DNA from: Astropecten irregularis
Taxonomy: Eukaryota; Echinodermata; Asteroidea; Paxillosida; Astropectinidae
Reading direction: 5' to 3'
Assembly (NCBI GenBank): GCA_963971285.1
Contig: OZ020244.1
Coordinates: forward strand, 22,506,001 to 22,570,000
Length of the DNA: 64,000 bases
Shown: in pieces, positions 34,601 through 64,000 of the stretch
How positions within the stretch are numbered: position 1 is the stretch's first letter
Layout: every line of letters begins with the position of its first letter
Program-made: the position numbers and the translations under genes
The notes under the pieces: model-generated
What the model was told of the DNA's origin: nothing
Seen by the model: the letters and a program-made list of their open reading frames with translations, nothing else
Databases searched by the model: none

Positions 34601-37600
34601 AAATAAACTCTTCATAGGGAGAGAATAGATCATGAAAGGTGCGATCCCTTAGCAGAATGTACGGACGGGGAACTTTACTCAAGAGATAGATGTGATAGGA
34701 ATGGTATTTTGTTCGTAACTTTTGAGCTAATAAATGAACAAATCGAGTCGCCACGGCGGTGCTATTTCTGCGGAGATCAAGGTATAGTGATATAGCGCCG
34801 CAGCGCAGTACATACATTTACATGATGATGTACTAACACGTAAACTATGCTTGCGGAACTTTTTTTCTTCATGAAAGTAGGCCTATCCAAAATCATCATT
34901 ATAAAATATAGTCCTTAGTCGGTACGTCTTTCAAGAACACAAGACTTAGAGAGTTTGTGAGGTGGCCAGCGGTCGCAGACACGTAAATATCCAAAGGGGA
35001 TATTTTCAAAATAATTGCAAGATTTCCAGACGTAACTTCACTGGTTTGATTGACAGCGCACAGTAGGCCTACATACAACCGTATTTCACACCTTCAAAAC
35101 ATGTTGTAAATAGTAATAATTGACCATAACAAAATGTACAATTTGTTGTGGATGACAAAAGTATTTTCACACAAATAAATGCCCACCATGATGATGAAAA
35201 CCTTGTCAGGGATCATGTAGTCCACACGTATTTCCTGTAAGTTTATAACTCCGTTCACAAAAATCACAAGTTCACTCACAACACAAGCCAAAACATTACG
35301 CACTGCATGTACTGTATACTGCATTATGTTTACATTGTACAGTGTATACATTATACAGTGCGTAAACAGAGTCGTCCCGTCCATTCAAAATAGTAGGTCA
35401 AGTTCATGAAACAATTTGCATAAATTTGATACAAATTTAAAACAATTTGATACACAAGAAAGTACTCACGGCGTGCATGTACTGTATATAATGAGAGGTT
35501 GAAATAATTGTCAACAAACAGACTCCTGTCGGGATTTTCACTTGCAAAATTGCTGGCAAAAATTGGTGATTATTATAGAAGGTTAGTAAGCGTTATAGGT
35601 TATTCACAAACATGACTGAAACATAATGATAATGAATATTGTCAACAATATTTAGTAGCTGACAGCCTAAATAAATAATCTGAATTTTGTGTGCAACAAG
35701 TGCACATAAAATTATTTATCAGAGAGAAGTACAAATTGGTTCCAGTGTAAAGCTAATTTGGATACTAGTAAAACGTGCCCAACAAAATCAGTAAAAACAA
35801 GCAGCTAGGAAAACGGTAATGGTAATTAATTGATTAATTGATTGCGCCGATCGTGTAGTCTTGGCAACGATTGTTGACGTTAGACTTTCACACATGCGCA
35901 ACAGAAAAATTTTCACCAACAAACCTAAGTGGGGTACTAAGATAAGTGGGGTACTAAGTTGTTTCGTGAATACGTCCTTAAGCGCCCAACTTAAGTTAGC
36001 GGGGTGCTTGAGACTTAAGTACATAACTTAAGTACCCCACTTAGTAAGTTTCGTGAATTTGATATTCACGGTCAGCGAACAACAGCCAAAGAACAATCAC
36101 AAGTGATACACAACAAGTGGACATTTGGTTGTTAACCCTGTTTTTATTATAAAGACAGAAATGTCATGCTTAGCAAATTGTTGTGCTTAACAGTTTTATG
36201 AAATTGGCCCGAGAGTTTTCAGTGAGCTGTATACTCCGTGGCTGGAAGGAACAATATTTTTTTAGGCTGGCCTTGCCAATTGGTTGTCTCCTGCCCGGAG
36301 GCTTTGCCTTTATAAGCCTTTAGGCTTATAGGCATATGATCATTGTGATGCTCGACAAGGCGATATAATTATTATATTCAACAATTACTGACCTTTAAAT
36401 ATCGGGCATATTTCCCAAGCTTTAATGCCTCCCTGAGACATGAACTGGCCAAGAGCGACCTCCATAAAGAACAGCGGTAGTCCCCCAGCAATGGCGCATA
36501 TGAAGTAAGGAATCAAAAATGCTCCTATAAAAAAGATGATCAAGAAGAAACTGTTATAAAACTGACGAAACTTATAGCACATAAAACCGAAGAATCATAC
36601 ATCAAGATGCTGAGCAAAAAGAAAAATGGTCAAATAAATTAAATGACCTCAATTTGTGTTAAATAAAAAATATAGAACTTGACACGTCTTGCGAAAGGAT
36701 TTTTTGCTTGTCAAATCACTAGGGTTAAATATTAGTTCGAAAGAAACTATAGGCCGCGTGGTTTGTCTTTGGGAAAAAATCAATACTTCAAGTTCAAGTA
36801 CAGTAAAAGAAAAGCAATTAACAACGACCATCATCTACTTTTCCAAATACATTTATCACAATGTATATTATATTATAATTATACAGGCCTAGACTATGGA
36901 CATTTCTTTGAAAGCTGTATTTGACAATATGACCGAGGCCCAGCTAGAAGGGTTGGTGTCCGTCAGGCGCGGTTCTAGAGTCAAAATTTTGGGGGGGCTA
37001 GAAGAGCCATTATTTTTTTTGGGGGGGGCTAGAAGACCCAATATTTTGGGTTCTTCTAACACTCGCTTCTGCTATGTCTTATTAGGGGTCGAAAAACATG
37101 CACATTATAGCCCACATAACGCGTTTTTTTATGTAATTGGCGCTTAATAACTGAAAAAAATCCAGTATTTTCAATTTTTTTTTTCGCTTGCATTTTTTTT
37201 TGGGGGGGGGGGGGCTATATAGACAACATTTTTGGGGGGCTGTAGCCCCCCTGTAGAACCGCGCCTGGTGTCCGTACTGTTGTTGTGCACGTTCCTAATA
37301 AAGTAATATTTCATGGCTGCGAATTGCGATATCATGCAGCACGTCAGCTGGATTAAGGTTTTTGGGAGCAGTTATTTCTATAATTAGTGTAGGCCTATAC
37401 TTACCTCCTCCGTTTTTATAGCAGAGATAAGGAAATCGCCAGATGTTTCCCAAACCAACAGCAAAGCCGATACAAGAGAGAATGAAGTCTAGTCTTCCCG
37501 TCCACTGTTCGCGCTGTTTCGGCTGTTTATCCTCCTCATCACAGATACTAATATTATGTTTCTCTCTATTGCACTGAAGAGGCTGGCCGTGCCCGTGGAC

Positions 37601-37651
37601 TTCATCCGAAAAAACCATAGGAAACTTGCTCGTTGCACTGTCCCCTTCCAT
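22654..37651 (-). CDS. SLC6-family Na+/Cl- coupled transporter (GABA/taurine/betaine/creatine group), 14 coding exons, 634 aa
   Basis: Exons on the minus strand: 37651-37405, 36524-36393, 33252-33101, 32364-32225, 31566-31434, 30250-30116, 29135-29032, 28555-28431, 27530-27415, 26827-26693, 25222-25120, 24524-24424, 23831-23664, 22767-22654 (TAG). Phases agree at every junction and the length is typical of SLC6. Seen: TM1 block [15 protein letters not shown] (about 69-83), with Gly66 where monoamine transporters have Asp; extracellular loop 2 with C167 and C175/C176 and five N-glycosylation sequons (N180, N189, N209, N212, N215); then [38 protein letters not shown]-like [38 protein letters not shown] and MIGYRP. 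These are closest to the SLC6A1/6/8/11-13 branch, and the segment GYNREFF..LGLTMVT is most like the taurine transporter. The protein should sit in the plasma membrane and import an amino-acid-like osmolyte or transmitter. It ends in TNV, which fits a class I PDZ ligand. The substrate is not decidable from sequence. Confidence 0.94.
22951..23331. mobile_element. Family B element copy in the last SLC6 intron
   Basis: Starts TTAAAGGTGCAGTATACAGT and ends ACCAATTATGTATTATACAT, with core TTCAGGGTATGAAGATGGTG. Part of the same family also lies at 22245-22445. Confidence 0.7.
24018..24200. mobile_element. Family C copy forming a hairpin
   Basis: The arms GGAGGGCCTGACGCGATTCG and CGAAACGCGTCAAGCCCTCC, with GATCCTAGC/GCTAGGATC inside, are inverted repeats around a loop near 24117. 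The copy lies in an SLC6 intron. Confidence 0.78.
25338..25405 (-). repeat. Degenerate tRNA-like sequence
   Basis: Minus strand GGTCGTGGGTTCGAATCCCA is a perfect B box with T-arm stem, followed by CCTTAGCCA. Upstream, CTGC...GCAG could be an anticodon stem with an 8-base loop. The 5' half does not pair with the acceptor end, so this is a tRNA pseudogene or SINE head and not a working tRNA. Confidence 0.5.
26215..26223 (+). promoter_or_regulatory. TATA box inside the TIR element
   Basis: TATATAAAG preceded by CC, with the only non-repetitive ATG of the element (26270) about 47 bp downstream. Transcription would be expected to start near 26245. Spacing is right for a pol II core promoter. The function is inferred. 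Confidence 0.45.
26270..26449 (+). CDS. 59-codon open frame inside the TIR element, unknown product
   Basis: ATG at 26270 follows the TATA box and opens [20 protein letters not shown], an acidic stretch that does not look like random translation. From about codon 38 it runs into the GCTTTG repeats and stops at TAA (26447-26449). It is probably the 5' end of a gene, either captured from the host or left over from the transposon's own gene, and truncated by the repeat. I do not recognise the protein. It is antisense to the SLC6 gene. Confidence 0.4.
   Translation: MAEQQDPEVPDVPEQILRHVNEACQVVTEHEDWGPRFEPSSVKLSYALSQALLSFVTLC
26882..27182. mobile_element. Family B element copy in SLC6 intron
   Basis: Carries TCAAGAAAGATACAACAACA, TTTACAGTCCCATAACGG, TCTACCATCACCATTTTCAT and ends GCTACCAAAGTACCTT, all shared with the copies at 30399 and 55771. 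Confidence 0.7.
29401..29644. mobile_element. Family A foldback MITE, full copy
   Basis: GGGGCCAATTTCATAGAGCT at the start and AGCTCTATGAAATTGGCCCC at the end are exact inverted repeats. The 244 bp are nearly the same as at 13457 and 39766. Located in an SLC6 intron. Confidence 0.88.
29800..30050. mobile_element. Family D relative
   Basis: Shares CTGGAATGGACTGGTTCCTT, GTGCCATTCTAT and GACATCTGTTATGTAA with 14390-14480. The arms TGGGGCAAG..TTGTATAGC and CAAAAGCTTGCCCCA form an imperfect foldback. Confidence 0.65.
30399..30772. mobile_element. Family B element, complete copy with TIRs
   Basis: AAAGGTAGTATCATACTTTG at the left is mirrored by CAAAGCATGATACTACCTTT at the right. The interior includes TTTTTGATCTTTTAAAAGTT and TTTCTGGATAAATACACCAT. 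Located in an SLC6 intron; no coding capacity. Confidence 0.85.
30862..31025. repeat. 78-bp tandem duplication with an embedded hairpin
   Basis: Two nearly identical 78-bp copies (30862-30939 and 30948-31025) each end in GGAGGTATAAAAAGTC followed by TTTTTATACCTCC, which is a stem of 13 bp around a short loop. The rest resembles the family A interior (CATCACATAAA, TTTGGTTGGTAA). Confidence 0.85.
33303..33871. mobile_element. Family B copy split by an inserted repeat
   Basis: The family text runs up to GATGGTGCTGGT (33390) and resumes at TAGAAACATACCG (33585). The 194 bp in between (33391-33584) begin with an AAT microsatellite and contain ACATCACAAAGCGCTGTACA, a typical SINE/LINE tail motif of marine invertebrates. 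So a later retroelement fragment landed in the older element. Confidence 0.65.
34384..36058. mobile_element. 1.7-kb TIR element with ends ATTCACGAAAC
   Basis: ATTCACGAAACTACTTAAGT at the left is mirrored by ACTTAGTAAGTTTCGTGAAT at the right. Subterminal AAGTGGGGTACTAAG motifs repeat in both orientations. The length and a possible transposase fragment (34599-34817) set it apart from the short MITEs nearby. It lies in SLC6 intron 2, directly abutting a truncated family A copy on its right. Confidence 0.7.
34599..34817 (-). pseudogene. Possible Harbinger/PIF transposase N-terminal remnant
   Basis: A 72-codon minus-strand frame within the 1.7-kb TIR element ends [20 protein letters not shown] before a stop. 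The pattern RPY.LRDR, then an acidic/aromatic 'Y.EEF' reminds me of the N-terminal region of Harbinger (HARBI1-like) transposases. I see no DDE catalytic residues and no continuation, so at best this is a decayed piece; it could be chance. Confidence 0.25.
36059..36210. mobile_element. Truncated family A copy
   Basis: Begins in mid-element at TTGATATTCACGGTCAGCGA and ends TTTTATGAAATTGGCCC. Its left part is missing where it meets the 1.7-kb TIR element. Confidence 0.75.
36960..37270. repeat. G/T-rich inverted repeat in SLC6 intron 1
   Basis: GGTTCTAGAGTCAAAATTTTGGGG at 36971 and CAACATTTTTGGGG...GTAGAACCGCGCC at 37213-37266 frame a region with G runs and T runs. The outer words GGTGTCCGTCAGGCGCGGTTCTA and TAGAACCGCGCCTGGTGTCCG are inverted in part. 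Confidence 0.5.
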
Positions 37652-43812: not shown

Positions 43813-46800
43813 CTACTGATCGCTCTCCGTCCCATGTTTATCCGGATCTTGGTCCTCCGAGCCGATGCTGGACTGCCCCGATGCCTTGCGCGTCCTGTGA
43901 ACCGAGTCCTCTCCGAGGATCTCGCATAGTTCATCCAGTCTGTCCTGCATCCCTGGAACACCTGCCAGCTGGGTCTCTAGGCGTTGTTTCTCCTCATTCA
44001 GGGACAGGCGCTTTGTGATGTTGAGTTCATCCAGACGCCAGCCTCCCTCCCCGTCAAACTGTAACAGGTGGGTGTGGAACTTCCTAAACATTAAAAAAGA
44101 AATACAAGTACCGGTATTAAGTCCACCCCAATGAACAAGGTAATTGATTAAAAGAACAGCCTTACAAATTTCATTAAAATACACCTATAATACAAACCTG
44201 CTGCTGGCTTATCCTGATTGGATAAAAGAGGGTCACATGGGCTTTCCTGATACGAGACAATGTTGGACATTTGTGTTTCGTACTTACTTTGAAATCAGTT
44301 AACACTATACTACAGTGCGTATCAAAAAAAACGCAACAAGATTTCATTTCAAATTTGTGAAGATTGTGTTAGCTTTACAGCAAAGTGATATCTTATTCAT
44401 TCATGCATGGTCATGGATAGCCGAGTAATCATTGTTTTTGGACATTAGGACTTGGGGCCAAGTTTTACACACACATGAGCATCAAACTCATCAATAATTC
44501 TTTGTCAGAGAGTTGCAATGTCAGGTGGAGGGGTAATAAACACTTTGCTCTTGAGATAACCCCCCCCCCCAAAAAAAAAGTCAGATTAGGGACCTATTTC
44601 ACTAAAGTCGTATTTTGCGATCATCGCTATCACACTTGATATGAGATGGATACTTTACGATCAATTCTCCATTTAGTGATGGGTTTGGCCTTCAGCAATG
44701 ATCATAAAACGTAACTGTGTGCGTTAGTGAAATCCACCCCTGGTCCACATCATGATACATGTACAAGGCCGAATTACTCGATGTCCAAAAACCTCAGCCA
44801 ATCTGTTTCTTGCTGCAACTAGTCGACAGGCTGGTGTGCATCCTGTGCCCTCCATAGGCATCTGAACACACATTCAGGAATCACATTTTCATTTAAAATC
44901 TGTAAGTATCCATTTCCGGATCTGACCTTGTTGTGACTTTTTTCTTTGGCAGTGTGTGGAGGAGTGCGCGTGTGCATCATTGCTTGGCCATTGCTAAGGT
45001 GGCAGTGGCCTACTGGATAGGTGTATTAATGTAAAGTCATGACGATGACGTACCATAGAGATGGCCTGTGTGTGATGGTCAGCATGATGATACCAGCATC
45101 CTTGGCCCTCTGGAATATCTTCCCTTCCACATCGATACTGACGGCACTCGTGCACTCATCCAGAAGAGCAAACTTGGGCCTGGTGATATACAGAACATGA
45201 AAGGAGTGGTAATTCTCATATAAAGCTAGAGAAAAAGGGAACAAATGCTAACATTTTAGATTTACATGCACGACTACCTATCAACGTACAATGTACAGTA
45301 TAAAGCACAAAGATCTCTAAAAGACACCACAAGCACTGCTATAGTGTGATTTCACATTAGCGCCGTCTGCTCATATCCACATCAGAACCGAGACTCTCTT
45401 TGCTGAACTTTGGCCGCACCGCCATGGCCATTTGATACACTACTGCCTGCATGCGATACACGAACATCATACTCTCAGCTCAGGTATGAGCTACATGGTA
45501 CCATGAGTTTTGGCTGCCATACTGATTTTATTACCAAGGTTTTTGGTGCTTGGGAAAATTTAACTGCTTACCAGTTGGCCCCAGATAAAGAGACTGTGCG
45601 TACTTACTGTTGATAGAAGAGTCTGGCCATTCCCATTCTCTGTTTCTCACCACCTGATAATACATCCTTCCAGTCTCTTGTTGCATCCCAACCTGAGTGG
45701 ATAAACACCAAACCGTGCTTGTCAACCAAAAGCAATTTCTTTTTTTCTGTCTAAACCCTCTTGAATCCATGATTGGTAAAGGTCACAGAACAGCACTCAC
45801 ACTTTGTCTGATCCAATATGTGCGTGAAATGATAAACCTATGAACATTTGAGCTCTATCACTCATCTGAGTCATGAGAAAACAGCAAAACCCAATTTAAT
45901 TTTTCTTACAAAAGAATGGTTTTGATCTTACCCCGAGATCAAAACTGTTTTCTTTCTTTGTTTGACTAATTTCTGGATAAATACACCATTCAAGTTGGAA
46001 ATATTTTAACGGTATGTTTCTACCAGCACCATCTTCATACCCTGAAAGTACGTAAATCTGTGAATATTTCTGTTTGGGTATGTTACCAATGCTGTACTTT
46101 GCCTTCAATGACAATGATCATATTCCTTTCTAGAAAAATGACAATAAACTGGTGAGCAGGGAAACTTTTATAATAACCCGTCTAGAAGTGGTTATTAATA
46201 ATGTTTAGAGGTTGTTGATAATATTTTACTTTATATTTTATTTTGCATTACAGCAAAAACCGCTAATTCACAATGAAAACTTGGCAGGGGTGCTGGCCCA
46301 ATAAGATCCAAATACTACAAGTCTTTGGACAGAAAGAATTCGAAACTGAACCCCCTAAAAAAAGGAGAAATTTCAGAAAATGGCTCACCTCCTTCCCTGT
46401 TGACTATTTGTTGGAGGTTGACGATATCAAGGATACGTTCCAAGTCACTGTCATTCATACCCTTCTTCAGCATGTCAGAATGCCTGTCTGGATAGATCAC
46501 TTGGTCCCTCAGCGTACCCAGTGACATGTAGGGTCTGGAACCAGACATAAAGCAAGGCCATGACATCTTCTAGATGCAACTGTTTTCTCTCTTGTGTCTT
46601 GGTCCTTTTGAGCCATATGTTAATAGCGCTGCGCACTTGCGCTAAAAATAGCACCGAACCTCAGACAAACATTGCAACGTGGCCATGCAAACGTGTGTTG
46701 AGTGGAAGTATGTGTGCGCGTCGCGCGTGGTGTGACGTCATTAGTGCGGAACGCTTTTCTCTAGTGTTTAGTAAGCCACCAAAAACTATTAATTCATGCT

Positions 46801-49800
46801 TTTCAACAAATGTCAAAACCCGGTTTACAGAATGAAGGCTCAGGTTCAGGTTCAGGCTCAAGTTCTGGCACTGTCATTCATATACTGAAAATAATAGGTT
46901 GTAGTTTTTCATTAAAGCTGAAGCTTTAGTCTTCAGATAATCTTCTTCCGAACCGAAGCCAAAAGCCTCTATTTTGATACCCATTATTTTAGAATGGATT
47001 CACAAAATGCAGCCTGAGCCTGAGCCTCAGCATCCTCAGGATTTACTCACCTCTGTGGAATGAAAAGCATTTCCTTTGGATTGGGTTTAACCAGCTGTCC
47101 ATCATAGGCCGGCCATAACCCACATAAGATCCTGAAGAGGGAGCTTTTACCACACCCATTGGGCCCAGTGATCAACAGGTGCATGCCCTCTGTCACCTTA
47201 ATTAACATAAAAGTACAAAGTGGGTGTTTGATTAATTCATCAATCTATTACCGGTACATTTCTTGTGTGCAACTTTATCAGGGGTAGTCTTGGATCACGA
47301 CTATGTTATTGCTCGAAAATACGAACCGATTACCTGCACTGACCTGCGTTGCATGTACGTCAATTTACGTAAATGCCTCTCTGAAACATAGTCTTGGGAA
47401 TCCTGTAATAGGGCCGTGAGTTGCATGCACACCTCATAATGTAGCATGCTTCGTTGTCTCCATGACACGCTGTGGATTACCCGCACTGGCCTGCACACAC
47501 GTACATGTACCTGTATGTTAATAGGCTGCGCCTGATTCAAAAGTAACGCATACACAGTGTGTTTTCCCCGTTTTCGGGGGGAGATTTCACAGGATTCCCA
47601 AGACTGTTTCAGAGAGGCCTTTACGTACATGTACGTACATGCGTGCTGGTAATCGGTTCGTACATTCACTTAATAACATAGTCTATGTAATAATATAGAC
47701 TTTGTTCGAGGGTGCTCTTAAGTCCTGCCCAACTTAGCAATGCCACATGTTTTACATACCGCATGTGACCAAGTTCATGTGACCAACGACTCCAATAGCG
47801 CTCTACACTAGCGCTAAAAATAGCAACGGATCTCAGACAAACATTGCAACCATGCAAACGTGTGTGCGTGTGCGCGTCCATACACTACGTGTGTGAGACA
47901 GTGTTTGTCTGACATCTGAGGATTTTGTGACGTCATTAGTGCGGAGCGCTATTAGTCAAAATTGTTGTGTAATACAATGAGCAGAAGGCAGTATTTTCAA
48001 TCCACAACTCATAAAAAAGGCATCTGCCAATAGTGCGCTGTTGACTTGAAGACCAGTTCTCCAAAGTCACCCATTCATGCATACCTTTAAGGACAGCGAG
48101 CTGACCACGACATCCCTGTTTGGAGTGATGATTGGCAATTCTTTGGCAATGATAAGTGAAGAATCTGTCTCCGTGACCTCTCCTGCAAGAATCAGTATTA
48201 GTGTGAAAGGAGACAGTGTAATCACTTCCTCCAGTTTACAACATTTTATAACATTTTCCTCCAGTTTACAACATCGTGCGCTGTTCCAGCGCACGATGCC
48301 TTACTCCGTCACAAAATTAATATAGTAAACATGTGGGGTGCTGTGGCCTAGTGGTCTGGCGTGTCGAACTCAAAGTCTTGTGGTCAATCTACAGATTGTG
48401 GGTTCAAATCCAGCCATGGGTTAATGGTGCTTGCGTCCTTGGGCAAGACGCTTTGCCATGTATTGTTCCTCTTCACCCAGGTGTAAATGGGCACCTGAGA
48501 GGGTAGAGATGGCTTTGTGGTTTGATAGCCTCTGTGCGCTGAATACGGCAGCCAGGGCTGTATACTCCCCAGGGAGCTGAGATGGTTTCGGGAATGTAAA
48601 TTATGGCCCGATGACCAGGGGTAATAATACATTTGTAATGTGCAGAGGATATATTCATATACTAAATGTAGCTGCGCAATATAAATGTCCTATATAGAAA
48701 CATGACTGCAGATGCACAAACCCATCTTTGAAGTGATGAATGGATACATACCTCCAACAACTAATGGACCTTGGACCTGCGCTATGCTCTTTGTAGTTTT
48801 ATGGCTGCCTCCTTTGATGACCCTCGCTCTCACATAGTGGCCACTGCTGACATCTTCAAAGACCTCTAGGAGGTCTGAGACACGAGAAGTGTAACCAGCA
48901 AGAGCCGTCACCTGCCAAATGAAGAAAGGGATTGCCAGTCAACTGACCACTGATGGCTTTCTGATATGGGTCATTCCAGCAGGTTGGGGCATGATTTGTA
49001 GCGGTGTCAAATGTTACAAGTATGTCTGCACACATCCATTAACTGCACTATGACTCGTAATCTTCAGTTTCATTTACCGGCTGATTTCATTTGAAGGTCA
49101 GCTGCAAATTTGTGTTAGTTAAATCAATGGATATTGTCCATTATGAATGTGCAATTGTGCAGATGTAACATCTGACACCGTCACAAATCAATCATGCCCA
49201 ACCCTGTAGAATTACCCATACATGTATACAATTATACATTATGACTCTATGGGCCTGTTTGTTTAACGCACAAAATCACGAATCCTGCGGATCCGGATCC
49301 CATTTTAGCGTACCCTGCATAGGATGTGGATCCCCAAATCTGGGATGCCGTGCATTAAACAAACAGGCCCTGTGACTAGTATGATTTACAGTAGCATACC
49401 ATGACCCACTACATCCCCAACAGTTACACTTCCTCAGATAGGTGGGCATTCGGATCAGTCACTCTGCTTGCAAAGTTAAGACTGAGTTTGATATAAAGAC
49501 AGCTTCAAAATGGTCACAGCCGTCAAAATTATCTCGGATGCGTTGTAGTCATATGAAATATGGCAGTTTCTTCCTGACTCTTCCGATGATGGGGTGACCT
49601 CTGTCTTTCTTGAGTTGATGGGATTCAACCTACAATACAAAACCTTCATCAGGTTCTAATTCAATTCCAAACTTCTCACCTCTTTGTAAGATGACATGAC
49701 TCTCTCCATGGCATCAGCCAGGCTAAGGAGTAAACTCTTGGCAGTGATGAAGTTCTGGGTACGTTGACTTATGGACTGGCTCTCGGTGATCGGTTCTCCA

Positions 49801-51614
49801 TCTGGCAAGGGGAATATTCGGTGGAAATATCAAGTAATTAAGAAGGAGTGCCACACAAATATATTTGGAATACCCCGTCAATTTCCCTTGTGGTTATTTG
49901 ATGATTATCTTCTTTTTTTTTCACATAAAAATCTCTATAACTTAACATGCTTAATGAAGAATGAAGTGTATCAGTCTAAAGATCAAGTAGACCTCTGGGT
50001 GATCACCGATGCATCCCCAAACAGAATTTTAATTCTCAATCTAGAACTAACTCTAGGAAGTATGCATCACTCAGAATCTCCTACTTACCAGGACCGACTT
50101 TAGGTGTTCTGGATGTGATGATTGGGATAGCAACCATGGCTAGACCGTTAGCACTCCAAGTGTATTTCAGTAGGAACTGCTCCAACATGACGTACCAAAG
50201 ACGTTGACGGTATATCAGGCTCATCTGTCTCTTCAGCATCTCATAACTGCGTCTTAGTTGTGCATGCTCAACCTGCGATGATTCACACAAAAAAGGTACC
50301 AGGCTCAAAATTTATATGGTATTACTAGAGAACCAGCAAAGAAGTGAATTCAGTGAAAGCAATTGTGAAGCGCATGCTCACAATTGCGTGCACGTGCGCT
50401 GCTGACTTGAAGACCGATTCTCAAAAGTCTCCCATTGACAAAATGTTCAGACATGACAAAGATGGGAATGCTTATACATGTAGAAACAGATTGCAAGCAA
50501 ATGGCAGCATCCCTGTGGTCTCTTCATACAACAGATTTAGCTTCTAGTCAATATTAAGTATTGGCTACTGGTACTCATAAAATTTGATAAAAATAATTTT
50601 TTTTACAACACCAAGGAAGAATGTAACAACTCTTATTACCTCATGTCCCTCATAGAAGGCTATCTCCTCAGCATTAGCAATTATCCTGGAATGCACAAAA
50701 CGAAGGTTCCCTTTCTTATCAGCCTCATCCGCCACCAGCCGGCCAAATCTGGGAGAGGCTGCCCTCAAGATCTTCGCTGTAGCGATGAATGTCAGGCTAC
50801 CGATAAACGTGGAGAAGCTCGTCCCCGAGTTGTTCTTGCTTGCCAGCCCGACGAGGGTGTAACACATCAGTAGGATGTCCAACATGGGCTTACTCAGTTG
50901 TGAGTACAGGTGAGCGACCGATTCGCAGAAGGTGCTGACGTCTTCGGTCAGGTTCTGGTCGGGGTTGACGAGTCGGGTATCCATGTTGCCAACCCTATAA
51001 TAAGTCTGATTCTTGAAGTAGAGCTTGTAGCAATGGGTGACCAGCCTGGAGCGGAAGGCTAGGGACAGGGTGCTCTCGAGGAACCGGATGGCGCTGTTGA
51101 CAAATGTTGCCGGAACGGCAATCAGGAGCCACTTGAGAATGTGCAGGAGGAACTGCATCATGTTCTTGTTGACAATAGCCTTGACCATGTTCCCTTCAAG
51201 GTGAGCGACATAGATGGAGAGGAATGTTCTGCAGATGAGTGACATCGTGTGGAGACAGAGGAGTCCAAATTCCTTAGTTAAAATCCCTGGCATGATGATC
51301 TTAATGAGACGGATCAATTTCCGGTTGAATTCGGAATTGACCATGTGAGAGGAACCCTCCGGCCCACCTCTGACGGTGTCCATGATGACAACGCTGCTCT
51401 TCTTCTTGGCAGCCGCATGCTGGGATCCTTGATTGTGTTTGGCTGTGACATCCTCGACGATGCTCTTCAACACCGAGAAAGCATACTGCACGTGGTCTTT
51501 GGAACCGTAGGCAACGACAGCGCCGATGGCCACACCCGCCAAGATCTTTGGGTGTTTGAAATTTGTTGATTTCAGGTGCCGGAGGCTTCTTTTCAGACGC
51601 AAGAGTTGAGACAT
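43813..51614 (-). CDS. ABCD1/2: Peroxisomal ABC half-transporter, ABCD1/ABCD2 (ALD) type, 10 coding exons, 770 aa
   Basis: Exons on the minus strand: 51614-50640 (one long exon, 325 codons), 50272-50089, 49801-49680, 48911-48752, 48182-48085, 47196-47051, 46534-46389, 45692-45608, 45179-45054, 44083-43813 (TAG). All phases fit. Domain order: transmembrane domain with the ABCD loop [10 protein letters not shown] (217-226) and the block FYEGHE at the end of exon 1; then one nucleotide-binding domain with Walker [10 protein letters not shown] (524-532), ABC signature LSGGEKQR (622-629), Walker B FALLDE (642-647) and H-loop His676. The segments [32 protein letters not shown] and [16 protein letters not shown] match ABCD1/ABCD2 far better than ABCD3 or ABCD4. 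The family dimerises in the peroxisomal membrane and imports very-long-chain acyl-CoA for beta-oxidation. The large first exon is also a feature of the vertebrate genes. It starts about 1.7 kb from the divergent REDIC1-like gene. Confidence 0.96.
45773..46105. mobile_element. Family B element copy in ABCD intron 7
   Basis: ATTGGTAAAGGTCACAGAAC at the left, TGTTACCAATGCTGTACTTT at the right, with GATCTTACCCCGAGATCAAA and TTTCTACCAGCACCATCTTC inside. Confidence 0.75.
46625..46760 (+). repeat. Dispersed repeat with a CRE palindrome, copy 1
   Basis: Shares AGACAAACATTGCAAC, CCATGCAAACGTGTGT and GTGACGTCATTAGTGCGGA with 47795-47955. TGACGTCA at 46733-46740 is a full cAMP-response-element palindrome. 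Lies in ABCD intron 6. Confidence 0.7.
47301..47681. mobile_element. 380-bp long imperfect palindrome in ABCD intron 5
   Basis: CTATGTTATT..ACGAACCGATTACC at the left is mirrored by GGTAATCGGTTCG..AATAACATAG at the right. The match continues inward through GGCATTTACG, CTCTCTGAAACA and CAAGACTATG-like text to the centre near 47490. The short 122-codon frame across it is a by-product. Confidence 0.8.
47795..47955 (+). repeat. Dispersed repeat with a CRE palindrome, copy 2
   Basis: Same words and same orientation as copy 1, with TGACGTCA at 47928-47935. Lies in ABCD intron 5. Confidence 0.7.
48333..48665 (+). mobile_element. tRNA-derived SINE with A and B boxes
   Basis: TGGCCTAGTGGTCTGGCG (A box) and GTGGGTTCAAATCCAGCC (B box) are about 50 bp apart, as in a tRNA. 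They are followed by a long non-tRNA body with CGTCCTTGGGCAAGACGCTT and CACCCAGGTGTAAATGGGCA, words that I recall as a widely shared central domain of metazoan SINEs. It ends in an AT-rich tail. Located in ABCD intron 4. Confidence 0.8.
49251..49370. mobile_element. 120-bp MITE
   Basis: GGGCCTGTTTGTTTAA and TTAAACAAACAGGCCC are exact inverted ends, followed inside by CGCAC/GTGCA. The interior has GGATCCGGATCC-type palindromes. Located in ABCD intron 3. Confidence 0.85.
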
Positions 51615-53342
51615 CTTGGCTGATGTGTCAAGACTTGGACAGACTTATCAAATCAGGATTTGGCAACATTCCACTTCACAACTATGTTCAACCTAATACC
51701 ACAAAAATATAAGAGGGGAAATAATCAGAAATTTACACAAGCCACTGGTGCCAGTCACAAAGCTGAAATCTTCCAAAACTAATTTTTCATGTTAATGGTT
51801 TTAAAAGCACTCGAATGAAAGAATTCCACTGATGACCATTACAGAAAAGAGGTTATTATTATATCCTCTTAGAGTTACCTTACTGAATACAAATTGTGAT
51901 GAACTTCAATCTCAGCAGAGCCTGTGTAACACTGGGGTAGCATATCTAAAAAAGTGAGATTTACAGGTTTGTTTTTTACGTACAATGAATGATACACTTC
52001 GAATACAGCAGCAGCTATTTATCTCAAAACGCCAGACTGCTGGTGCCATACAGTTGTGCAAAAGCGATTTTGATGGTCGTCAGTGGAATTCTTGCCAAAA
52101 AAAGGGAGTAGGCCCTAGCCTATGGCTACAGTACCTCTGTGACTGTTGCGTCTATATTTTGCTGACTAAAAAAGTAAACAAAATAGTAAAATAAAACTGA
52201 TGTGATCATTCATAGTCACAGGTCTTGTCACTCTTGAGACTTGTCACTTGATTTCAATTTAACATTTCTAAAAACAGAAATGCATTATGATTAGATTCCT
52301 CGGCCTAGCAATGTTTGGTGGGCGATTGTAAAGTTCGCGTTCGGGACCTGTGATTTTATCATCACAGCAACATACACTAAATACAGGTACAGGCACAGCA
52401 CAGGCAGACAGAACGCAAGCTCAGTGTGCGAAATCATATTCACAATCACACTCACACAAGTCACTTAGGCCTAAGTCGTTAATTTAATTAACTAACGTTA
52501 CTCGTTAGTACTAGTAGGCCTATGATCATTTCTACCTCCATGGTATGATAAAAATGTTTTATCATAAAACACAGGGCCAGGGGGTCTCAAACTTTACAAT
52601 CGCTATACCAAATACATCTTACGTGCATGTACTTACGATCCCTCCCCCAGTTTCAAGATAGTCATCAATGATCAAGATAATTAATTAAATGTAAAATAAT
52701 AAAAATAGGTCTTCAAGTTCAGCACTGTACTTTGTTGCGACCTTGCAACTCACAAAATTAACTTATGCACCCCAGACGTCTTAGGTAATAAGCCAGTGCA
52801 ATATCAAATGCTTGATTTGGGGAACCTGTCTTTTTCATCAACAGCGCCACCATTGTCGAAGCACGTAGTATAAGACTTGGCTACGGCTTGAATACACGCA
52901 CGTCTCTATGGCAAAGCCGTAACCACGTAATTTTTTTGACAGCGGCTAATTAGCATGAACAAGTCTGGCTTCCAGACGTCCGTACGTCGACTGTGTACAG
53001 ATACAAATTTGAGAGCCTGTCGTTTTTTGCACCTAACTTTTGACGAATGGCAACACGTCCACGAAGTTGTAGAAAATAGCAATCGTCTGCTCTAAAAAGT
53101 GAGGCGCTGGTTTATGACCTTTCCCACTTTGGCACGTTTATTTATCTTTTGGAAACTTGAGGAGTCACATATATTGCTGTGAAATTATCAGCAGTTTTTT
53201 TATGTTTTGAAAACTTTGGAAATAATTTCCAATCACTGAAGCTGAATCATCAGAACTTCAGAAGGAGTGAGGTGCGCCTCAACATTTTACAATCATTGTC
53301 AATGTCATTTTGCATTCATTGAACTGTCAAAGCAGAGTCAGA
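51615..53342. promoter_or_regulatory. Shared upstream region between the divergent ABCD and REDIC1-like genes
   Basis: About 1.7 kb separates the two start codons, which point away from each other. I see no open frame of substance and no TATA box at a clear distance from either ATG. The region must hold the 5' UTRs and promoters of both genes, so it may act as a bidirectional promoter. Part of it (52310-52600) looks like a dispersed foldback: cgattgtaaagttcg near 52325 is roughly mirrored by aactttacaatcgc near 52592. The inference rests on spacing and orientation only. Confidence 0.5.
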
Positions 53343-56300
53343 ATGAACTGGGTTGGTGGAGCGAGGTAGGCAATCACCGTGATCTTTAAGCTAGTGTAAC
53401 ATTAGGACCCAGTGGCCCTACTTGTACTGGTACTAGAGTAAGCCCTAGTGATGGTTGTAGTTTATCCTACCACTTGTACCCGTACCCAGTTATTTTATGA
53501 CCAAAATCGTAGGGTAAAAAATTAGATAATTTATAATTTAGGCCTAATAGTCATACTAATAGGGCCTAGGCCTACTACTATAATTAGGCCTAGGGGGGCC
53601 TATAGTATTAAGCCTATAGGCCTAACGTTACTAACTAGTTGTTTGGTTGTGTTGGGACCATTTACTTTTACTTTTTAGCCCGAAAAAAAAAACACACACA
53701 CAAGCAATATCACTTTGACTTGAGATTTTGTTTTATTTGTTTTCCAGAAATAGAATCAGAACAAAAGATGAGAAGCAGCGACAGAAGGTGAGGACTTGGC
53801 TTTTTTTATCTGGCCTTACAGGGCTCGAAATAGTACTAGGCCTACTAGCCTTCTACTACTACTATACTAGGGCCTACTACTACTAGCCTAACCTGGAGTA
53901 ACGTTAGGCTATTACTAGGCTAGGCCCATAGGTCTATCAAAAACTACTCTGGGCTAGCTAGACTCGCTTCCTTGGTTGCCAAGTTGGCTAGTAAAAAAAA
54001 AATTTAGAACATGCATGTTGAGGCATGGATCAACATATGTACGGGTTTAATAGTAAAAATCTAAACAGGCTTGTAAAAATAATCTGAAGTAAGCAGGCCC
54101 GGTTGGCTAGCCAGGAAAAAACGTTAGCGCAAGGCCTGCCTTAATTTCTGGTGTTTACGAAACGGAGGCTCAGCTCAGGCTCTAGCTCTGACATCCATAT
54201 GCTGAAAGTGAAAATATAGGTTTAGGCTTTTCATTGAAGCTGAAGCTCTGTTTCCCTTTTCAAACAAGAGAATCTACTTCCGAACCGCAGCCAAAAACCT
54301 CTATTTTGATGATTGTGACAATCTGTATCACCCATACAGGCGTGAGAGGAGCAAGGGCTTTTCTTTAAAGTCATGCTGGTTAATACAGTGGTTTTAACTT
54401 ACAATGTATCTATTGTATGGTTTGGTTAAGTCTACTCTATTATTTTGTTTTGTTTTTCTTACCAATGGCCCAATATCTAATAACAATGAAATCTTTCCAT
54501 TATCACAAGAAATTTTCTGAGATGCAAAAATATGATTTGACATATTGTTATATTTAAATTATAGCCAATGGCCAAATGAATAATTTTTAACACTAAATTC
54601 TTTCCTTTGATGCAGGAGTTTTTTGAGAAGAAGAAATATGGAAGCAAAATGAAACGTCTGAATTATAAACAAAATTCTCCAAAGAAGACAAGCATTCCAC
54701 CAAGCTTGGACCTGTTATCATTGCAAGCTGCAGATTTTACTGCGAAGCAGTTTAGGAAAAACGGTTTGTACCTAGTACCTTGTAGTATTCTCTCCTGAAA
54801 GGTCCTCCAGGGACTATACTGCAATTTGACAATACACGGGTTTACACTTCGAAAAAAGCGCATGCGTGATAGTGCCTCGCTTTGAAGTCGCAATCAAAAC
54901 CGCCGAAGTGTAAATCCGTGTATTGTCTTCGACAATGGACGGGCTTACACTTCGAAAAGTGCGCATGCATGGAAGTGCCTCGTTTTGAAGTTGCGATCAA
55001 AATCTAAGATGGCCGCCATGGTGTAAACCCGTGTATAGTAGATCAGGATCTAAATCTACTGAATGTATTATGGTGGAAGTAAAACAGGTTTGATAGAGCT
55101 TCTGAAGGCTGAGGTTGAAGTTATATTGACAGTTGACTGGGGTAATTTATTTCAAAGTTGGGTGGTTTCAGGGAAGAAGAATTGAGAGTATGGAGTTGAT
55201 GAGTGGTGCTGAATTTTAAGTTGTTGGTTTGTGTTGAATAAGAATACAGATCTGCAATTAGAAACCTGCAAAATAATCATCCATATGAGTATTGGTCAAA
55301 GAGATTGATATTTCATATATAGGTTATAATTTGTTAGTAGGTACAACTCAGACAGTGTATACTTTAGAACTAGAAGCAACTTAAACAATTAAACTGGACA
55401 TGAATTTATGACTGAATTCAGGACAAATTAATGTTTGGTGCAGTTGATCCTAGCTATTGTTTCAAAAATTTAAAATCGAATCTCAAGAGTGCATGATAGT
55501 GGTTTATGCTTTGATTGTCTTTGATCCAACCTAGATGCTGAGAATAGCTCCAAGGGTAAAGTGAAAAGGGTCGAGTTGGACCGAAGCAAAGGCCTTTTCC
55601 CTTCCCATCATCCCCATGAGGATTTGGAACTACCAATGTCGCCCGGTTCTCCATCTAAACTACAGTTACAAGAATCAGAGGAAAGGTATCTAGGCAATCC
55701 TGCCCATATTAAAATGACTCTGAGTAAAAAGGTATTGAAATAATTATCTAATTAAAATAGCAAATACTAAGAAGTAATATCATACTTTGGTTTTTGTCAA
55801 AGAAATACAGATTCATGGGCAAAAATATCAAGGAAGATACAGCAACAGTCACCTGTGAAAATGTCAGTCCTATACTGTGCCCACTTTTTGAGAAAACAGT
55901 GAAAACGGCCACAGTATTTCTTAAGTCTTTTCTACTTTATTTTTGATCTTTAAAAATATGTTTGGTCACTGGTTTTACTCTTTTCTGGATAAATACAGCA
56001 TTTCAGCCAAAAAATATTGTAAAGGAATGTTTATACCATCACCATCTTTATAAAAACAGAAATCTTCACAGATTTACCGACAACTTACAGGGGTAAGTTG
56101 TCGTTAAATCTGTGAAGATTTCTGTTTCGGGATGCTACCAAAGTATGATACTACCTTTAAAATATTGAACAATATTGTGTGCAAGATTCAAGACTCATAG
56201 AAAAAATTAATTCATTTGCCAAAATGGATTTAGACATTTTCTTGTCTCTTTCATGCTGTCATGTGTAGTCCTGTTGAGTACACGATGCATAATGGAACCA

Positions 56301-59300
56301 TTTTCTGTTTCTGATTGGGTTTCATTAGTGTTTCTACCTTCAGTTCCAGCCCAATCTAGCTAGACAAATTTTTTATTTCAGATATTTCAAGTGAGCATAT
56401 ATGGCCTTAGGAAATTCAAGCATGCGTGATAATGGTGGGGAAAATGCTGCAGCAACTTAAATTCCACTTCATTCATTTAGGCCACTGACCACAGATTATC
56501 TTTTTTCCTCATGTTTTGAATGTACATCACAGCAATTCCAATTGCTTGCAATCTGGAGACATCTTACGAAGAGACATCAACAGACCATCAATGGAGAACA
56601 TGGATCATGCTCTGCTCTGTGACACAACTCAAGATGATCTGCAGGTATTGTAAACACATTCATTTGAATTCATTCCACCCATGAGACTGTAATTTCTAAA
56701 ACTTAACATTTATTATGAACCTTAAAGAAACATTGTGTCAACAAATTGTTGACCGATATGAATTATAAAACATTGTTTAGGAAACTAAATGCCTTGTTTA
56801 AAAACATCACACTCAATAATCCTTGTTTTGATCTCAAGCAACACCACCACCAATTTAACAGAGCTGCTTAAACACAAAATTTGCTTGAGAATGAAAAGTC
56901 TTCCTTGATCAAACAGGGTTACCAACCAAATTTACATCTGATGTTTACCACTTGTGACTTGTATTTATTTCGGCCATTGTTTGCTGAGCAATAACGTTAA
57001 AGAGGAGTTTTGGCTGGCATACTGATTTTATTTACCAAGATTTTTGGTGCTTAAGCAAATTTTGTTGCTTAATAAGAAGGTCTATGAAATTGGCCCCAGA
57101 TGAGCTGCACTGAATATTCTTGTCATCTTTGAGGGGATTTGCTTCATTACATGCACATGAAAATATGACACTTTCAATAGCATGTTCTTCATGAAAGTGC
57201 TATAAAAGACCATATGAACTGTACATTGCTACACATACATGATACATGTACCATGGAGAAATAAGTGTGTCTTATTTCTCCATGCATGTACTGATGTAGC
57301 TTATTGCCTGGGCCTTATATCCAAGCTATAATATGATGCATAACCCAATATATCTCGATGTGTTTGGGCTGAAAGTATCAATGATCATCACTAATTAGTA
57401 TGGAGTTAAAATTTCAGCAAACCTTAACTTGTTTCAGAAAAAGAATTTGTGCCAGTCATCATAACAAGTGTACAGTTAATTTGATATAAACTTTGAATTA
57501 CTGTAATATAGGACATAGGAGCCTTTGTAATTTAGTGTTTCTCTACAACATTACTTTAATTTACACTATTACTAATTTGCAGGCACTTACATGTACATGT
57601 GATGATCTTCAACCTTTTGAATATGGTAATCTATACTTTAAATCATTGTAATCTAAGACATCAGGGGCTTTGTAATTTAGTTTTTCTCATCCAAATTATT
57701 TAATCTACACAAACTAATTTGCAGGTACTTGGTTGCAGTGATCCTCGTAGCCTTATTGATCAAGCCAGTCATTTTCACAGCACACCCATGCCAGAGTCCA
57801 TGCCTTATCAAGCACAGCCAGTCACCCTCAAACACCAAGGGAAACATTTTGAGGACCTTTTCTTCAGTTTTGCGCATGGTAATAATGAGGTTTTGACACA
57901 GGAGGAGGATATTTCCCATGTTCCATCAGCAGCCAGCAGTGATGGAAGCGAAGATCAGTGAGTAGCAATTACATTTTGTTGACATTTTGCTGGTTAAAGG
58001 TATAATACAATGATTGGTAAAGTTCACAGAGCAGCACTCGCACTTTGTCTGATGAAATGATAAACCTGTGAAAACTTGAGCTCAATCAGTCAAGAAAATA
58101 GTGAAAAACTGGCTTAATTTTTCTTATAAAACATACAGAATGGTTTTGATCTTACCCCGAGATCAAAACTGTTTTCGTAAATACACCATTTCAGGCGGAA
58201 ATATTTTAACGGTGTGTTTCTACCAGCACCATCTTCATATCCTGAAAGTTATACGTAAATCTGTGAACATTTCTGTTTCAGTATGTTACCAGTCCTGTAC
58301 TTACCTTTAAATAAAGAGCTTTTCGGCTACAGGATGCTTATGACTCAAGTTGGCATGAAGTTGATCAACCGTTGTTCAAGAGAGACACATATTAATTTTT
58401 CAAATAAAGAAGTTGTATTTTTGTTTAATAATTCAAATGCTCATTAGTATTTGCATTAATTTGACAGGGATGTGACTTTTCAGATTTTTAATCTGAATTT
58501 TGATTATTGGGTTTAGATTTTAACTCAGAATTTCAGCTTTTGTGTACACCTGCTCTACACAAATGTATACAGAACTTTGAAATTTCAGCTTTTTCCTTGG
58601 TGTTTTCATATGTTTTGTGTGTGGCCATTTACATCCCTGATTTGAATAATCAGTGACAGCTAGTATTGACTTTTTGCTGCAAAGAAAGCCAAGAACATAA
58701 TAAAATCACATAAAATTATATTATAGAAAATTATCACATCAAAATATCATCTATCATTAGTATCATAAGAATAATATTAGAATAGCAGGAACTGATTTCA
58801 AACTATTATTTTCAGATATCTTTCTGACAGCTGTGACTACAGTCCTTTGTCCTCAATTCCATCTGTTTCCAGCGTAGCTTCTTCTGTGCCCTGTCATAGT
58901 CAAGATACTCAACAATGTTTGCAGGCATGTATATCTTTCAATTCAATCAGTCAGAATCACACTAACATTTTAATTAGCATTACAAAAACCAAACGCTGGT
59001 TCTCCAGATTTTTGGCATTTTTGTTAATAGCTGTTTATTCTCTTTTAAAATTGTTTTACATGATAAAGCTATTTGAATGTATTTTTCTTGCTGAATTAGT
59101 CATATGGGACTTTTTGGTGCAGCTTGAATGTTTTTTTTTTTCATTTGCTTAATCCATTTCCATTTTGTTTTAATTTCATTCAAAAGATAAAGTGAATTAT
59201 TCCAAACTCATGATGAAATGTTCTTTATTCTATTCAGGAGGCAGATTCATCAATGAATGAATCACATCAAACACAGAAACTACCAAAAAGAGTTCTTACT

Positions 59301-61874
59301 GCAAGCCCTGTATACCTCACACAAACCACCAGTCCCCCATTTCCCAACACCTGCAAACACCTACCCGAGAGATTTCATTCTGATGGCAGCATTGTCTCTT
59401 ATGGGGAAAGCCGTGTGGAGATGAAAAATCCTCCCAAGACCAAAGAGAAGTTTGGATCAACACCGAGGCCAGTTGATCTCACGTGCAAAGAGGAAGACGA
59501 ATTCCTGTCACCTTTTTGTAAACGAGCTCGATCAGCCGCCACTTGTGTCCAAGAATCGAGACCAAAGACACACCAGCAGGTGCATTTACCAGATCTACTA
59601 AGTTCTGAGAAACCCACAGGTGTCTCTGAGATGGCGTCAACTGGAAGGCGGACTCCAGTAAACAAGAAGAGCGGTTTCAAGAAGGAAAGCGCAGAGGGAG
59701 GCTCATCCATTTCATGTTCTTCCGATGGACAAGTAAACTCGGTCAAGCAGAAAGCAAACTCATTCAAGTGGAAAGCCTTTGTATCTGGTAATCAGATATT
59801 CATTTTGATATTTTCAATTGAATTCACACGTCATGACATTTATTCAGATTGGTTCTCCGATTGACATTTAATTCCTTGCATATTTTCACTTTCCACAGGT
59901 CAAAGTATCACAGACAACACCAATCACAATGAAAAAGAAAGGTAGATATTTAAAGCCAAACTAATTTACGACATACTCAATATTATGGTTTTTGTGAATG
60001 CATATCAAAATTGATAACTTTATGATATTCAAGTTAGGCATTTCTGTAGACTTGAGATCTTCTGTACGACTTTGTAAAAAAAATGACTGTATTTTGCTTA
60101 CCATCCTACCCTCAGTAACAAAAAGACAACAACCAAGACCATGAGTGAAGTCTGTGAGAGAATCCTGAAGGAGGTTAGTCATTTTATATCATTGTTATAA
60201 CCCACACACATTCACATTTAATCATAACTGATCAATGATACAATATGAGGTTTAAAGGGGCTTATCTTTAAGTAGGTACGTATACCCATTTGAAAAATAA
60301 TCTTTTGATCAATTCTGTAATTTAATATGTTTTGATTCAAGGTATTAGATCTGGACAGTGAAATGGGTCAACTTCTTCCAAGTTCAACTTCAAGTCCAGG
60401 TAAAATAAACACAAATTATATAACTGAATATAAGTGGTGATGAAGGGTTCACAAAAAACCACTTGAACATAGGCTAATCTATTAAGTGTGGACAGAGGAT
60501 CAATTTTAATCTGGTAAAAAACAACAGTCAAATCGCATTCCAAAAGTGTAAACTTGATTTTCAAAAAGATATTGCAGACTTTGGCTTATGAGTATTTAAT
60601 GGGCAGAAATTCAAACAATTTGCTTGCTATTAAACTTTTGAACCCAGCTATTACCAGGCCATGCAAGTACGGCCAGCTTCTACATAGTATGCCCAATTCC
60701 TCAACAATGCTGACTTAATAGGACATAACCTGGTGTTATTGTTTGTTTTTCCACTGATAGGATCACTGCCAAATACAGCAGACATTATAACTAATCCAAA
60801 GGTTGAAACGATGGAATTCAGTGACCTATTAACGGATGAGGTAAAGAGTTTGTATACACTTGCTGGTCATTTAATTGCTACCTGTCGAGATCATATTTGC
60901 AGACATTCAACTCTTTTAAATCAAGGATGAGATGACAGATATTTCTTGGGTTTTCAACATTCTGTTTTAGACAGTACATGTAATTGACAGTCTTCAAGTT
61001 ATCAAACTGAAGAAAGAACGAATTCAAATTATCATATCCACTAAAATTATATAAAAAATATTTTAAAACAAATCTATGTCACAAATTTTTTTTTCACTAC
61101 CTGGCCCAAAGCAAAGTTCATCCTAGGAATAAATTTGTTATCATGGCAAAAGACCTATTAATTATGATCTTTATACAACATTTATATTATTTCACACAGG
61201 AACAGACAAAGGACCCACAGAAGCGGGACAGGAAAGAGCTGGATAAGTTTATTAACCAGTCACCATGTCAGAGCCAATTGTTCACAGATAAAACACACTG
61301 CATATCAGACACATCTGAGCTGCAACGTAGTCATCCACAATGTGTTAACCAGGCCATCAAACTGGATGAGAGAGAATCACCTACATGTAGAGCTGATAAA
61401 CCACAAACTGTCAAAAGTCTAGAAAGTCAAGTGAATGTAGCGGAGGACCGGGTCCTTTTGGACTCAAGTGATGATCAGAAGACCGACTTTGTACCAGCCT
61501 CTGGCACTGCGATCAAGACGCATGATGAGTTGGCTGTGGGCGACACGCATCATTATTGCCTAGATCTTACAGCAAGGAACCTCCCCACAACCCCTGACTC
61601 AGACACCTCATCCCAAACACCACATCAAAAAGAGGAACTTGTGCTCATCACATGCGAAACACCGCAGACTGCAGGTGGATGTGCTGAGAAGGCATCACAG
61701 TGCATGATCCCCGAGACTGAAAGCAAAGAAACCCAGTGCAGAGCGGATGAATTTGCAGATGCAACATCATCTTCTGCATGTCTGTTGAGTAAAACAGAGC
61801 CTACAGCTGGAACCTGTGACACCAAATCACCAGGAACTTACATTGATGCCTATGATGCTTGCATACTTTCCTAA
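53343..61874 (+). CDS. REDIC1: REDIC1 (C12orf40)-like meiotic crossover factor, 13 coding exons, 759 aa
   Basis: Exons: 53343-53365, 53748-53787, 54616-54763, 55535-55685, 56533-56644, 57725-57957, 58816-58924, 59238-59787, 59899-59941, 60116-60173, 60342-60399, 60761-60840, 61200-61874 (TAA). Phases close at every junction. The first three small exons join to start MNWVGGAR and continue KEFFEKKKYGSKMKRL, then SLDLLSLQAADF. This is the pattern I recall for the N-terminus of vertebrate REDIC1 (MNWVGG, then KEYFEKHRLKSKMKSL and SLDILNL). The rest is low-complexity, Ser/Thr/Gln-rich and probably disordered, as in mammals, and shows no domain I can name. The mammalian protein (about 650 aa) is reported to act on meiotic recombination intermediates and to be needed for crossovers and male fertility. 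Exon 7 appears to end with a GC donor (CAG|GCATGT), the only exception to GT-AG. The N-terminal identity is strong; exon choices in the middle rest on phase and splice sites. The divergent ABCD neighbour supports orthology. Confidence 0.85.
54165..54320 (+). repeat. Dispersed repeat shared with ABCD intron 6
   Basis: GGCTCAGCTCAGGCTC, TTCATTGAAGCTGAAGCT and CTTCCGAACCG.AGCCAAAA recur at 46835-47040, and part of it recurs near 11014-11090. The copy at 46835 ends in GCCTGAGCCTGAGCC, the inverse of its start, so it is a foldback. Confidence 0.7.
54828..55036. repeat. Two adjacent hairpins with TTTACACTTCGAAA ends
   Basis: CACGGGTTTACACTTCGAAA at 54835 is mirrored by CGAAGTGTAAATCCGTGTAT at 54904. 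A second, similar unit follows (GGGCTTACACTTCGAAAAGT at 54942 to GGTGTAAACCCGTGTATA at 55020). Both contain GCATGC and a GTGCCTCG.TTTGAAGT block. In REDIC1 intron 3. Confidence 0.75.
55771..56160. mobile_element. Family B element, complete copy in REDIC1 intron 4
   Basis: The inverted ends are TATCATACTTTGG and CCAAAGTATGATACTACC. The interior contains a second, perfect-looking inner palindrome around 56093 (CTTCACAGATTTA...TAAATCTGTGAAG). Confidence 0.85.
56846..57095. mobile_element. Degenerate family A copy in REDIC1 intron 5
   Basis: CCAATTTAACAGAGCTGCTT at the left and AAGGTCTATGAAATTGGCCCC at the right, with ATTTCGGCCATTGTTTGCTG inside. More diverged than the other copies. Confidence 0.65.
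57995..58310. mobile_element. Family B element copy in REDIC1 intron 6
   Basis: TAAAGGTATAATACAATGAT at the left and CCAGTCCTGTACTTACCTTTA at the right, with GATCTTACCCCGAGATCAAA inside. Confidence 0.78.
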
Positions 61875-63681: not shown

Positions 63682-63777
63682 ATGAGTGGACGATATCAGA
63701 TTAATGATGTTGTCAGTAGTAAAATTGCCTGCCTTCTCCTGTTGTACTTCGTGCAAGGAATACCTTATGGCTTTCAG
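63682..63777 (+). CDS. First coding exon of an MFS transporter, MFSD3-like (gene continues past the window)
   Basis: An ATG at 63682 opens 32 codons that end exactly at a good donor (CAG|GTGAGT at 63778). The peptide is a short polar N-terminus followed by the start of a membrane helix, KIACLLLLYFVQGIPYGFQ. The pattern LYxVQGxPYGxQ is what I recall from the first transmembrane segment of MFSD3 and related AmpG/acetyl-CoA-transporter-like MFS proteins. The rest of the gene lies to the right of 64000, so the family assignment rests on one helix. The upstream 200 bp contain a short CpG-rich stretch (63480-63540) that could belong to its promoter. Confidence 0.6.
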
Positions 63778-64000
63778 GTGAGTTGGCCTTTTGGGGGATT
63801 TACCGTATGAACTAGGGCGTCCCTCGTCAGGTAGTGGGATTAGGTTTTTAACATTCATACAGATTACAGGTCATTGGTGTAAACATTAACAGTAAACACT
63901 CACTCATCACGACACCGTGTGCTGAAGGAATGTGGCAGAAGGCATGTTTCCAATTCCATTTCCTCCAATATCAACACTACCTGACCAAATGCAAACAAGC

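Follow-up and report, generated by a model that had tools for sequence, protein, structure and literature searches.

The window analysed here, 64,000 nt of the starfish Astropecten irregularis genome (contig OZ020244.1, positions 22,506,001 to 22,570,000), contains two genes arranged head to head. On the reverse strand lies a gene for an ABCD1/2-type peroxisomal ABC half-transporter (43813..51614), and on the forward strand follows an orthologue of REDIC1, also called C12orf40 (53343..61874). Their start codons are separated by 1,728 bp (51615..53342), a region that presumably holds the 5′ ends and the promoter or promoters of both genes. An earlier note had described the two genes as divergent and 1.7 kb apart, and our gene models confirm this arrangement with its coordinates.

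The ABCD gene was modeled with ten coding exons on the reverse strand (51614-50640, 50272-50089, 49801-49680, 48911-48752, 48182-48085, 47196-47051, 46534-46389, 45692-45608, 45179-45054 and 44083-43813). Together they form an unbroken open frame of 770 amino acids, and all nine introns follow the GT-AG rule. In a Pfam scan, the first exon matched PF06472 (ABC_membrane_2; E 1.2e-78) and a different exon of the same open model matched PF00005 (ABC ATPase). The domain pair of a half-transporter is thus present, and the best 120 of 1,514 ABCD proteins carry both domains as well. Compared with solved structures, exon 1 is most similar to human ABCD1 (E 5e-86), at 292 bits versus 141 for ABCD3 and 64 for ABCD4, which assigns the gene to the ABCD1/2 group. 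The protein is 85% identical to its counterparts in Acanthaster planci, Asterias amurensis and Patiria miniata (in Patiria with 81% of the query covered). Judging from the family (PMC7829553), the starfish protein would be a peroxisomal fatty-acid transporter.

The REDIC1 gene was modeled with 13 exons, with the ATG at 53343, the stop codon ending at 61874 and an open frame of 787 amino acids. Exons 1 to 7 are located at 53343-53365, 53748-53787, 54616-54763, 55535-55731, 56495-56644, 57725-57957 and 58816-58924, exons 8 to 13 at 59238-59787, 59899-59941, 60116-60173, 60342-60399, 60761-60840 and 61200-61874. Exon 5 has an uncertain 5′ boundary, whose position is a guess because the first residues of this exon have no clear counterpart in Acanthaster. 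Eleven of the twelve introns are GT-AG and one is GC-AG; the apparent GC donor, that of intron 7, follows exon 7 at 58925. Over its full length, the protein matches Acanthaster LOC110973599 (E 1e-76, 34% identity), and the top three matches come from Acanthaster, Patiria and Asterias, the same genera as for ABCD. The N-terminus also matches vertebrate proteins named C12orf40 or REDIC1, with E values down to 1e-10. Local alignment of the N-terminal 136 amino acids scored 186 with turtle, 167 with mouse, 149 with the sea anemone Nematostella and 140 with the sponge Oscarella, whereas the best scores in a shuffle control (n=300) were 65, 63, 60 and 58, respectively.

Looking beyond the pair, ABCD is followed on its 3′ side, as far as genes were found, by one on the reverse strand (23664..37651) for an SLC6 family member from the creatine/taurine/betaine/GABA clade, for which 13 exons were found; the search of the window did not recover the last coding exon. 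On the 3′ side of REDIC1, the next gene seen belongs to the major facilitators and is represented by what looks to be its first exon on the forward strand (63683..63778). It is MFSD3-like by a weak match of 22 residues with 50% identity (E 0.01). Farther away, the window also contains sulfatase-like open frames on the reverse strand (8902-13063), which we take, from their resemblance, to be probably an arylsulfatase gene, and a tandem array in which a 43-bp unit is repeated about 22 times (2124-3070).

Conserved N-terminal block of REDIC1

Exons 1 to 4 of the starfish REDIC1 gene (53343..55731, forward strand) encode an N-terminal block that is recognizable throughout the animals by the motifs MNWVGGxRxR, QKEFFE, SLDLL and ELPMSP..PSKL. 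Among the 108 REDIC1 proteins listed, 101 carry MNWVGGxRxR within the first 60 residues, and 100 of the 108 additionally carry Q[KR]xxFE; the window protein has the same MNWVGGxRxR...Q[KR]xxFE block. The seven proteins without MNWVGGxRxR are all vertebrate models with different starting residues. We found the block in two sponges (Oscarella and Amphimedon), in a sea anemone and in several molluscs, and one mollusc protein is already named “C12orf40-like” in the databases. Judged by this block, REDIC1 is an animal-wide gene, present from sponges to mammals.

The Pfam family PF15089 (Redic1-like) yielded no match in the window protein or in the seven invertebrate REDIC1 proteins scanned, and no Pfam domain was present in three proteins from fish that bear the name redic1 (P0022, P0037 and P0041). 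The scan of the 136-amino-acid N-terminus of the window protein likewise returned 0 families. Among the proteins scanned, PF15089 was confined to mouse (residues 226-650) and turtle (248-673). Because it covers just the C-terminal part in tetrapods, the invertebrate and some of the fish REDIC1 proteins are missed by it. For this reason, and because it is absent from the named fish proteins, we did not take PF15089 as defining REDIC1.

In mouse and human, REDIC1 was described to bind branched recombination intermediates and to be required for class I crossovers (PMC10447524). In the same source, D-loop binding by the human protein maps to residues 1-228, and a disease truncation of ~78 residues binds little. 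The conserved block would therefore lie inside the DNA-binding part, with the first 78 residues alone being insufficient. A second letter from 2023 refers, in a figure legend, to mRNAs bound by mouse REDIC1 (PMC10442395), so the molecular role is unsettled even in mammals.

A structure predicted for the Acanthaster protein from a 38-row alignment was mostly of low confidence (mean pLDDT 51) and contained helices only at residues 16-38, 51-71 and 461-484, the first two of them within the N-terminal block. Separately, we noticed a second short and apparently helical motif (~xxALxEVMxLD) encoded at 60116-60399, near MSEVCERILKEVLDLD, in alignment columns about 850-870. It seems to be common to starfish, urchin, cnidarian, mollusc and sponge proteins, is hard to recognize in the rows from vertebrates, and would correspond to the predicted helix 461-484 in Acanthaster.

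The gene pair in other species

A published table (PMC6114488) gives the human gene order as ABCD2 - C12orf40 - SLC2A13. Human ABCD2 thus adjoins REDIC1, as the earlier note had stated, and published tables assign both genes to 12q12. Published data from two further mammals support closeness, not adjacency: SNPs in the pig were listed for ABCD2 at 71.16, for C12orf40 at 71.20 and for SLC2A13 at 71.30 and 71.33 Mb, and a cattle window of about 1.1 Mb was listed with SLC2A13, C12orf40, ABCD2 and LRRK2. Hence, the same two genes are neighbors at human 12q12 and in the starfish window. We take the human genes to be in divergent orientation too, with a gap that is presumably several kb long. The flanks differ, as SLC2A13 lies beyond REDIC1 in human and the weakly matching MFSD3-like exon occupies this place in the starfish. 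A tblastn search with human queries detected neither SLC2A13 nor BCAP31 in the window at E<=1. The conserved unit thus looks to be the pair itself and not a wider block.

We also compared the contigs on which REDIC1 and ABCD proteins were encoded, using the best 120 of 1,514 ABCD proteins. In all five species that occurred in both listings, the two genes were on the same contig, as judged by identical contig sizes, which indicates linkage and not adjacency. These were the starfish Acanthaster planci (3,137,503 nt), Patiria miniata (19,347,424 nt) and Asterias amurensis (30,813,796 nt), the sea urchin Diadema setosum (49,285,881 nt) and the pipefish Festucalex cinctus (25,802,290 nt). Five such matches would be very unlikely to arise by chance. 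The REDIC1 contigs of Nematostella, molluscs and sponges are known as well, and these species are absent from the best 120 of 1,514 ABCD proteins. Adjacency itself was seen in the window and in the human table, while the other species provide closeness or contig identity.

The matches listed for REDIC1 included none from a hemichordate, lancelet, tunicate, crinoid or brittle star, and a search with Nematostella residues 1-120 gave 12 matches, among them no hemichordate or lancelet. Because the search is restricted to candidates that resemble the query in length and have exact words in common with it, a lineage missing from the REDIC1 listing is no proof of absence. ABCD proteins of hemichordates, crinoids and brittle stars were present among the best 120 of 1,514.

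Since the starfish window and human share the same adjacency, it should be older than the split between echinoderms and vertebrates. Together with the common contig in five of five species, this upholds the earlier proposal that the pair has stayed together since before this split, and we regard the greater age of the adjacency as well supported. If the two genes had instead become paired independently in starfish and in vertebrates, one might expect what is seen so far in the intermediate lineages, namely no adjacency and, among the matches listed, no hemichordate or lancelet REDIC1. Yet it would be very unlikely for two given genes among some 20,000 to meet twice, and in the sea urchin, too, a single contig carries the two genes. 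A secondary joining that happened twice is unlikely, and we consider such a coincidence highly improbable.

Ancient conserved gene pairs are well known as a kind. Published work on conserved divergent pairs and on ancient animal microsynteny (PMC3815023, PMC8851819) describes unrelated genes that were kept together for long times, and the genes considered here are likewise head to head.

Relationship to the human ABCD1 and ABCD2 loci

Human has two copies, ABCD1 and ABCD2, and we performed a phylogenetic analysis that placed the starfish gene relative to them. The unrooted tree comprised 21 rows, consisting of 19 of the 120 listed proteins, the window protein and human ABCD1. A branch with 100/100 support separated human ABCD1 and six vertebrate ABCD2 proteins from 14 rows of echinoderms, hemichordates, molluscs and nemerteans, and the window protein fell within the starfish (Asteroidea) group, again with 100/100. 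The tree departs from the accepted animal phylogeny in that hemichordates group with protostomes and vertebrates instead of echinoderms, and its sole ABCD1 row, the human protein, sits on a long branch. A similar reading comes from a lamprey study, in which a sea-squirt “ABCD2” is basal to both ABCD1 and ABCD2 (PMC4458048). From the fully supported branch and this parallel, it is very likely that the starfish gene predates the vertebrate duplication, and vertebrate ABCD1 and ABCD2 would both be its co-orthologues.

The history that explains these data best would start from a common ancestor of echinoderms and vertebrates in which a single ABCD1/2 gene lay head to head with a single REDIC1 gene. 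Starfish would have retained this arrangement. In the vertebrate line, the ABCD gene would have been duplicated, with ABCD2 staying by REDIC1 (12q12) and ABCD1 ending up elsewhere (Xq28). We assign a probability of roughly 85% to this reading, in which the adjacency was present in the echinoderm-vertebrate ancestor and the ABCD2 copy stayed beside REDIC1.

The SLC6 gene that flanks the starfish ABCD gene opposite REDIC1 raises the question of what the ABCD1 locus may have kept. In human Xq28, the order is SLC6A8-BCAP31-ABCD1-PLXNB3, with SLC6A8 one gene away from ABCD1, and deletions of 58 and 64 kb jointly remove SLC6A8, BCAP31 and ABCD1, according to a report on these deletions (PMC10494507). 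In both places, a member of the same SLC6 clade is thus near ABCD; the Xq28 locus differs from the window in the intervening BCAP31 and in the lack of REDIC1 among its listed genes. We further take SLC6A8 to be located on the 5′ side of human ABCD1, whereas in the window it is the 3′ end of ABCD that faces the SLC6 gene.

Among solved structures, the window SLC6 protein scored highest with the human creatine transporter SLC6A8 (719 bits), followed by the betaine transporter (709), GAT3 (707), the taurine transporter (682) and GAT1 (676), and its identity was highest to GAT3 (59%). A tree with seven rows separated the window gene from SLC6A1 (GAT1) with 96/94 support and left it loose at the base of SLC6A8 and SLC6A6/A11/A12. 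In the best tree, SLC6A8 grouped with A6/A11/A12 and the window gene was outside (69/67). AU tests rejected neither the grouping of the window gene with SLC6A8 (p-AU 0.32) nor that with A6/A11/A12 (p-AU 0.128).

These observations bear on a more elaborate history that is compatible with the ancestral adjacency of ABCD and REDIC1. The ancestor may have had the order SLC6(A8-like)-ABCD-REDIC1, and following the vertebrate genome duplications, Xq28 would have kept SLC6A8 and ABCD1, and 12q12 REDIC1 and ABCD2. The position of the SLC6 gene as the next one found beyond ABCD, its top structural match, the joint human deletions and the AU result for SLC6A8 are in line with such a reciprocal retention. 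The branching of the best tree, the top identity to GAT3, the different side of ABCD, and BCAP31, intervening in human and absent from the window in our search, speak against it, and since SLC6 is a large family, an SLC6 gene beside ABCD could be a neighbor by chance. On balance, we regard this division between the two loci as a tentative possibility with the odds rather against it; the SLC6 gene is possibly a relic of the ABCD1-side neighborhood. If it were true, starfish would show the undivided state, and neither human locus alone would be the ancestral one.

Consequently, the earlier suggestion that the ABCD2 locus, and not ABCD1, keeps the ancestral neighborhood holds in its first part, as ABCD2 retains REDIC1. 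Its second part is too strong, given an SLC6 gene beside the window ABCD gene and SLC6A8 near ABCD1. As the tree allows orthology with SLC6A8 without favoring it and the side differs, the ABCD1 locus could have kept the other half or lost it.

The intergenic region and retention of the pair

The earlier note had further suggested that a shared promoter may have held the two genes together. A bidirectional promoter or enhancer needed by both genes would agree with the retained divergent orientation and with a gap of 1.7 kb that presumably includes both promoters here. Within this gap, the CpG observed/expected ratio peaks at 52800-53199 (1.26 and 0.92), nearer to REDIC1, and is lowest beside the ABCD start, with 0.0 and 0.36 over 51600-51999. 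The CpG-rich segment could serve both genes if ABCD had an untranslated first exon; as a peak it is unexceptional, because the ratio rises to 1.36 within an intron at 54800. The gap contains no copy of any of eight repeat families of 60 nt or longer, and one 30-nt match to 1744-1773. All three genes, SLC6, ABCD and REDIC1, carry dispersed repeat copies in their introns (27132-27192, 30596-30774, 45936-46109, 55803-55874, 56101-56161 and 58136-58312).

The distance itself may speak against a shared promoter. Studies of divergent pairs usually require less than 1 kb between transcription start sites (PMC3815023), and the start codons of the window pair are 1.7 kb apart. The expression reported for mammals is discordant as well: REDIC1 is described as a gene of spermatocytes and fetal ovary (PMC10447524, PMC10442395), whereas the tissues given for ABCD2 are adrenal, brain, heart, liver, lung and muscle, with testis assigned to ABCD1, not ABCD2 (PMC7829553). 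Among the papers found on ABCD2 and bidirectional promoters, none deals with this pair, judged by title. CpG content, repeats and literature are indecisive, and the distance and the expression patterns do not bear the suggestion out; we consider a shared regulatory element as the reason for the retention to be doubtful.

Most likely, the long association of ABCD and REDIC1 reflects passive retention across a small gap. With less than 2 kb between the genes, the target for a breakpoint would be small, and because both promoters presumably lie inside the gap, a break there would cost one of the genes its promoter.

Neither a report of this pair outside of mammals nor one of an invertebrate REDIC1 appears in the accessible parts of the open literature on the pair, ABCD synteny, microsynteny and REDIC1. 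Our results would date the human ABCD2-REDIC1 adjacency before the split of echinoderms and vertebrates, more than half a billion years ago, at a time when REDIC1 already neighbored an unduplicated ABCD gene. REDIC1 itself, introduced in 2023 as a crossover factor of mammals and as a vertebrate-testis protein, appears from its N-terminal block to extend across the animals. This short ancient block is the part to study for binding of DNA or partners, and starfish gonads could be used to test whether the role of REDIC1 in crossover formation is ancestral.
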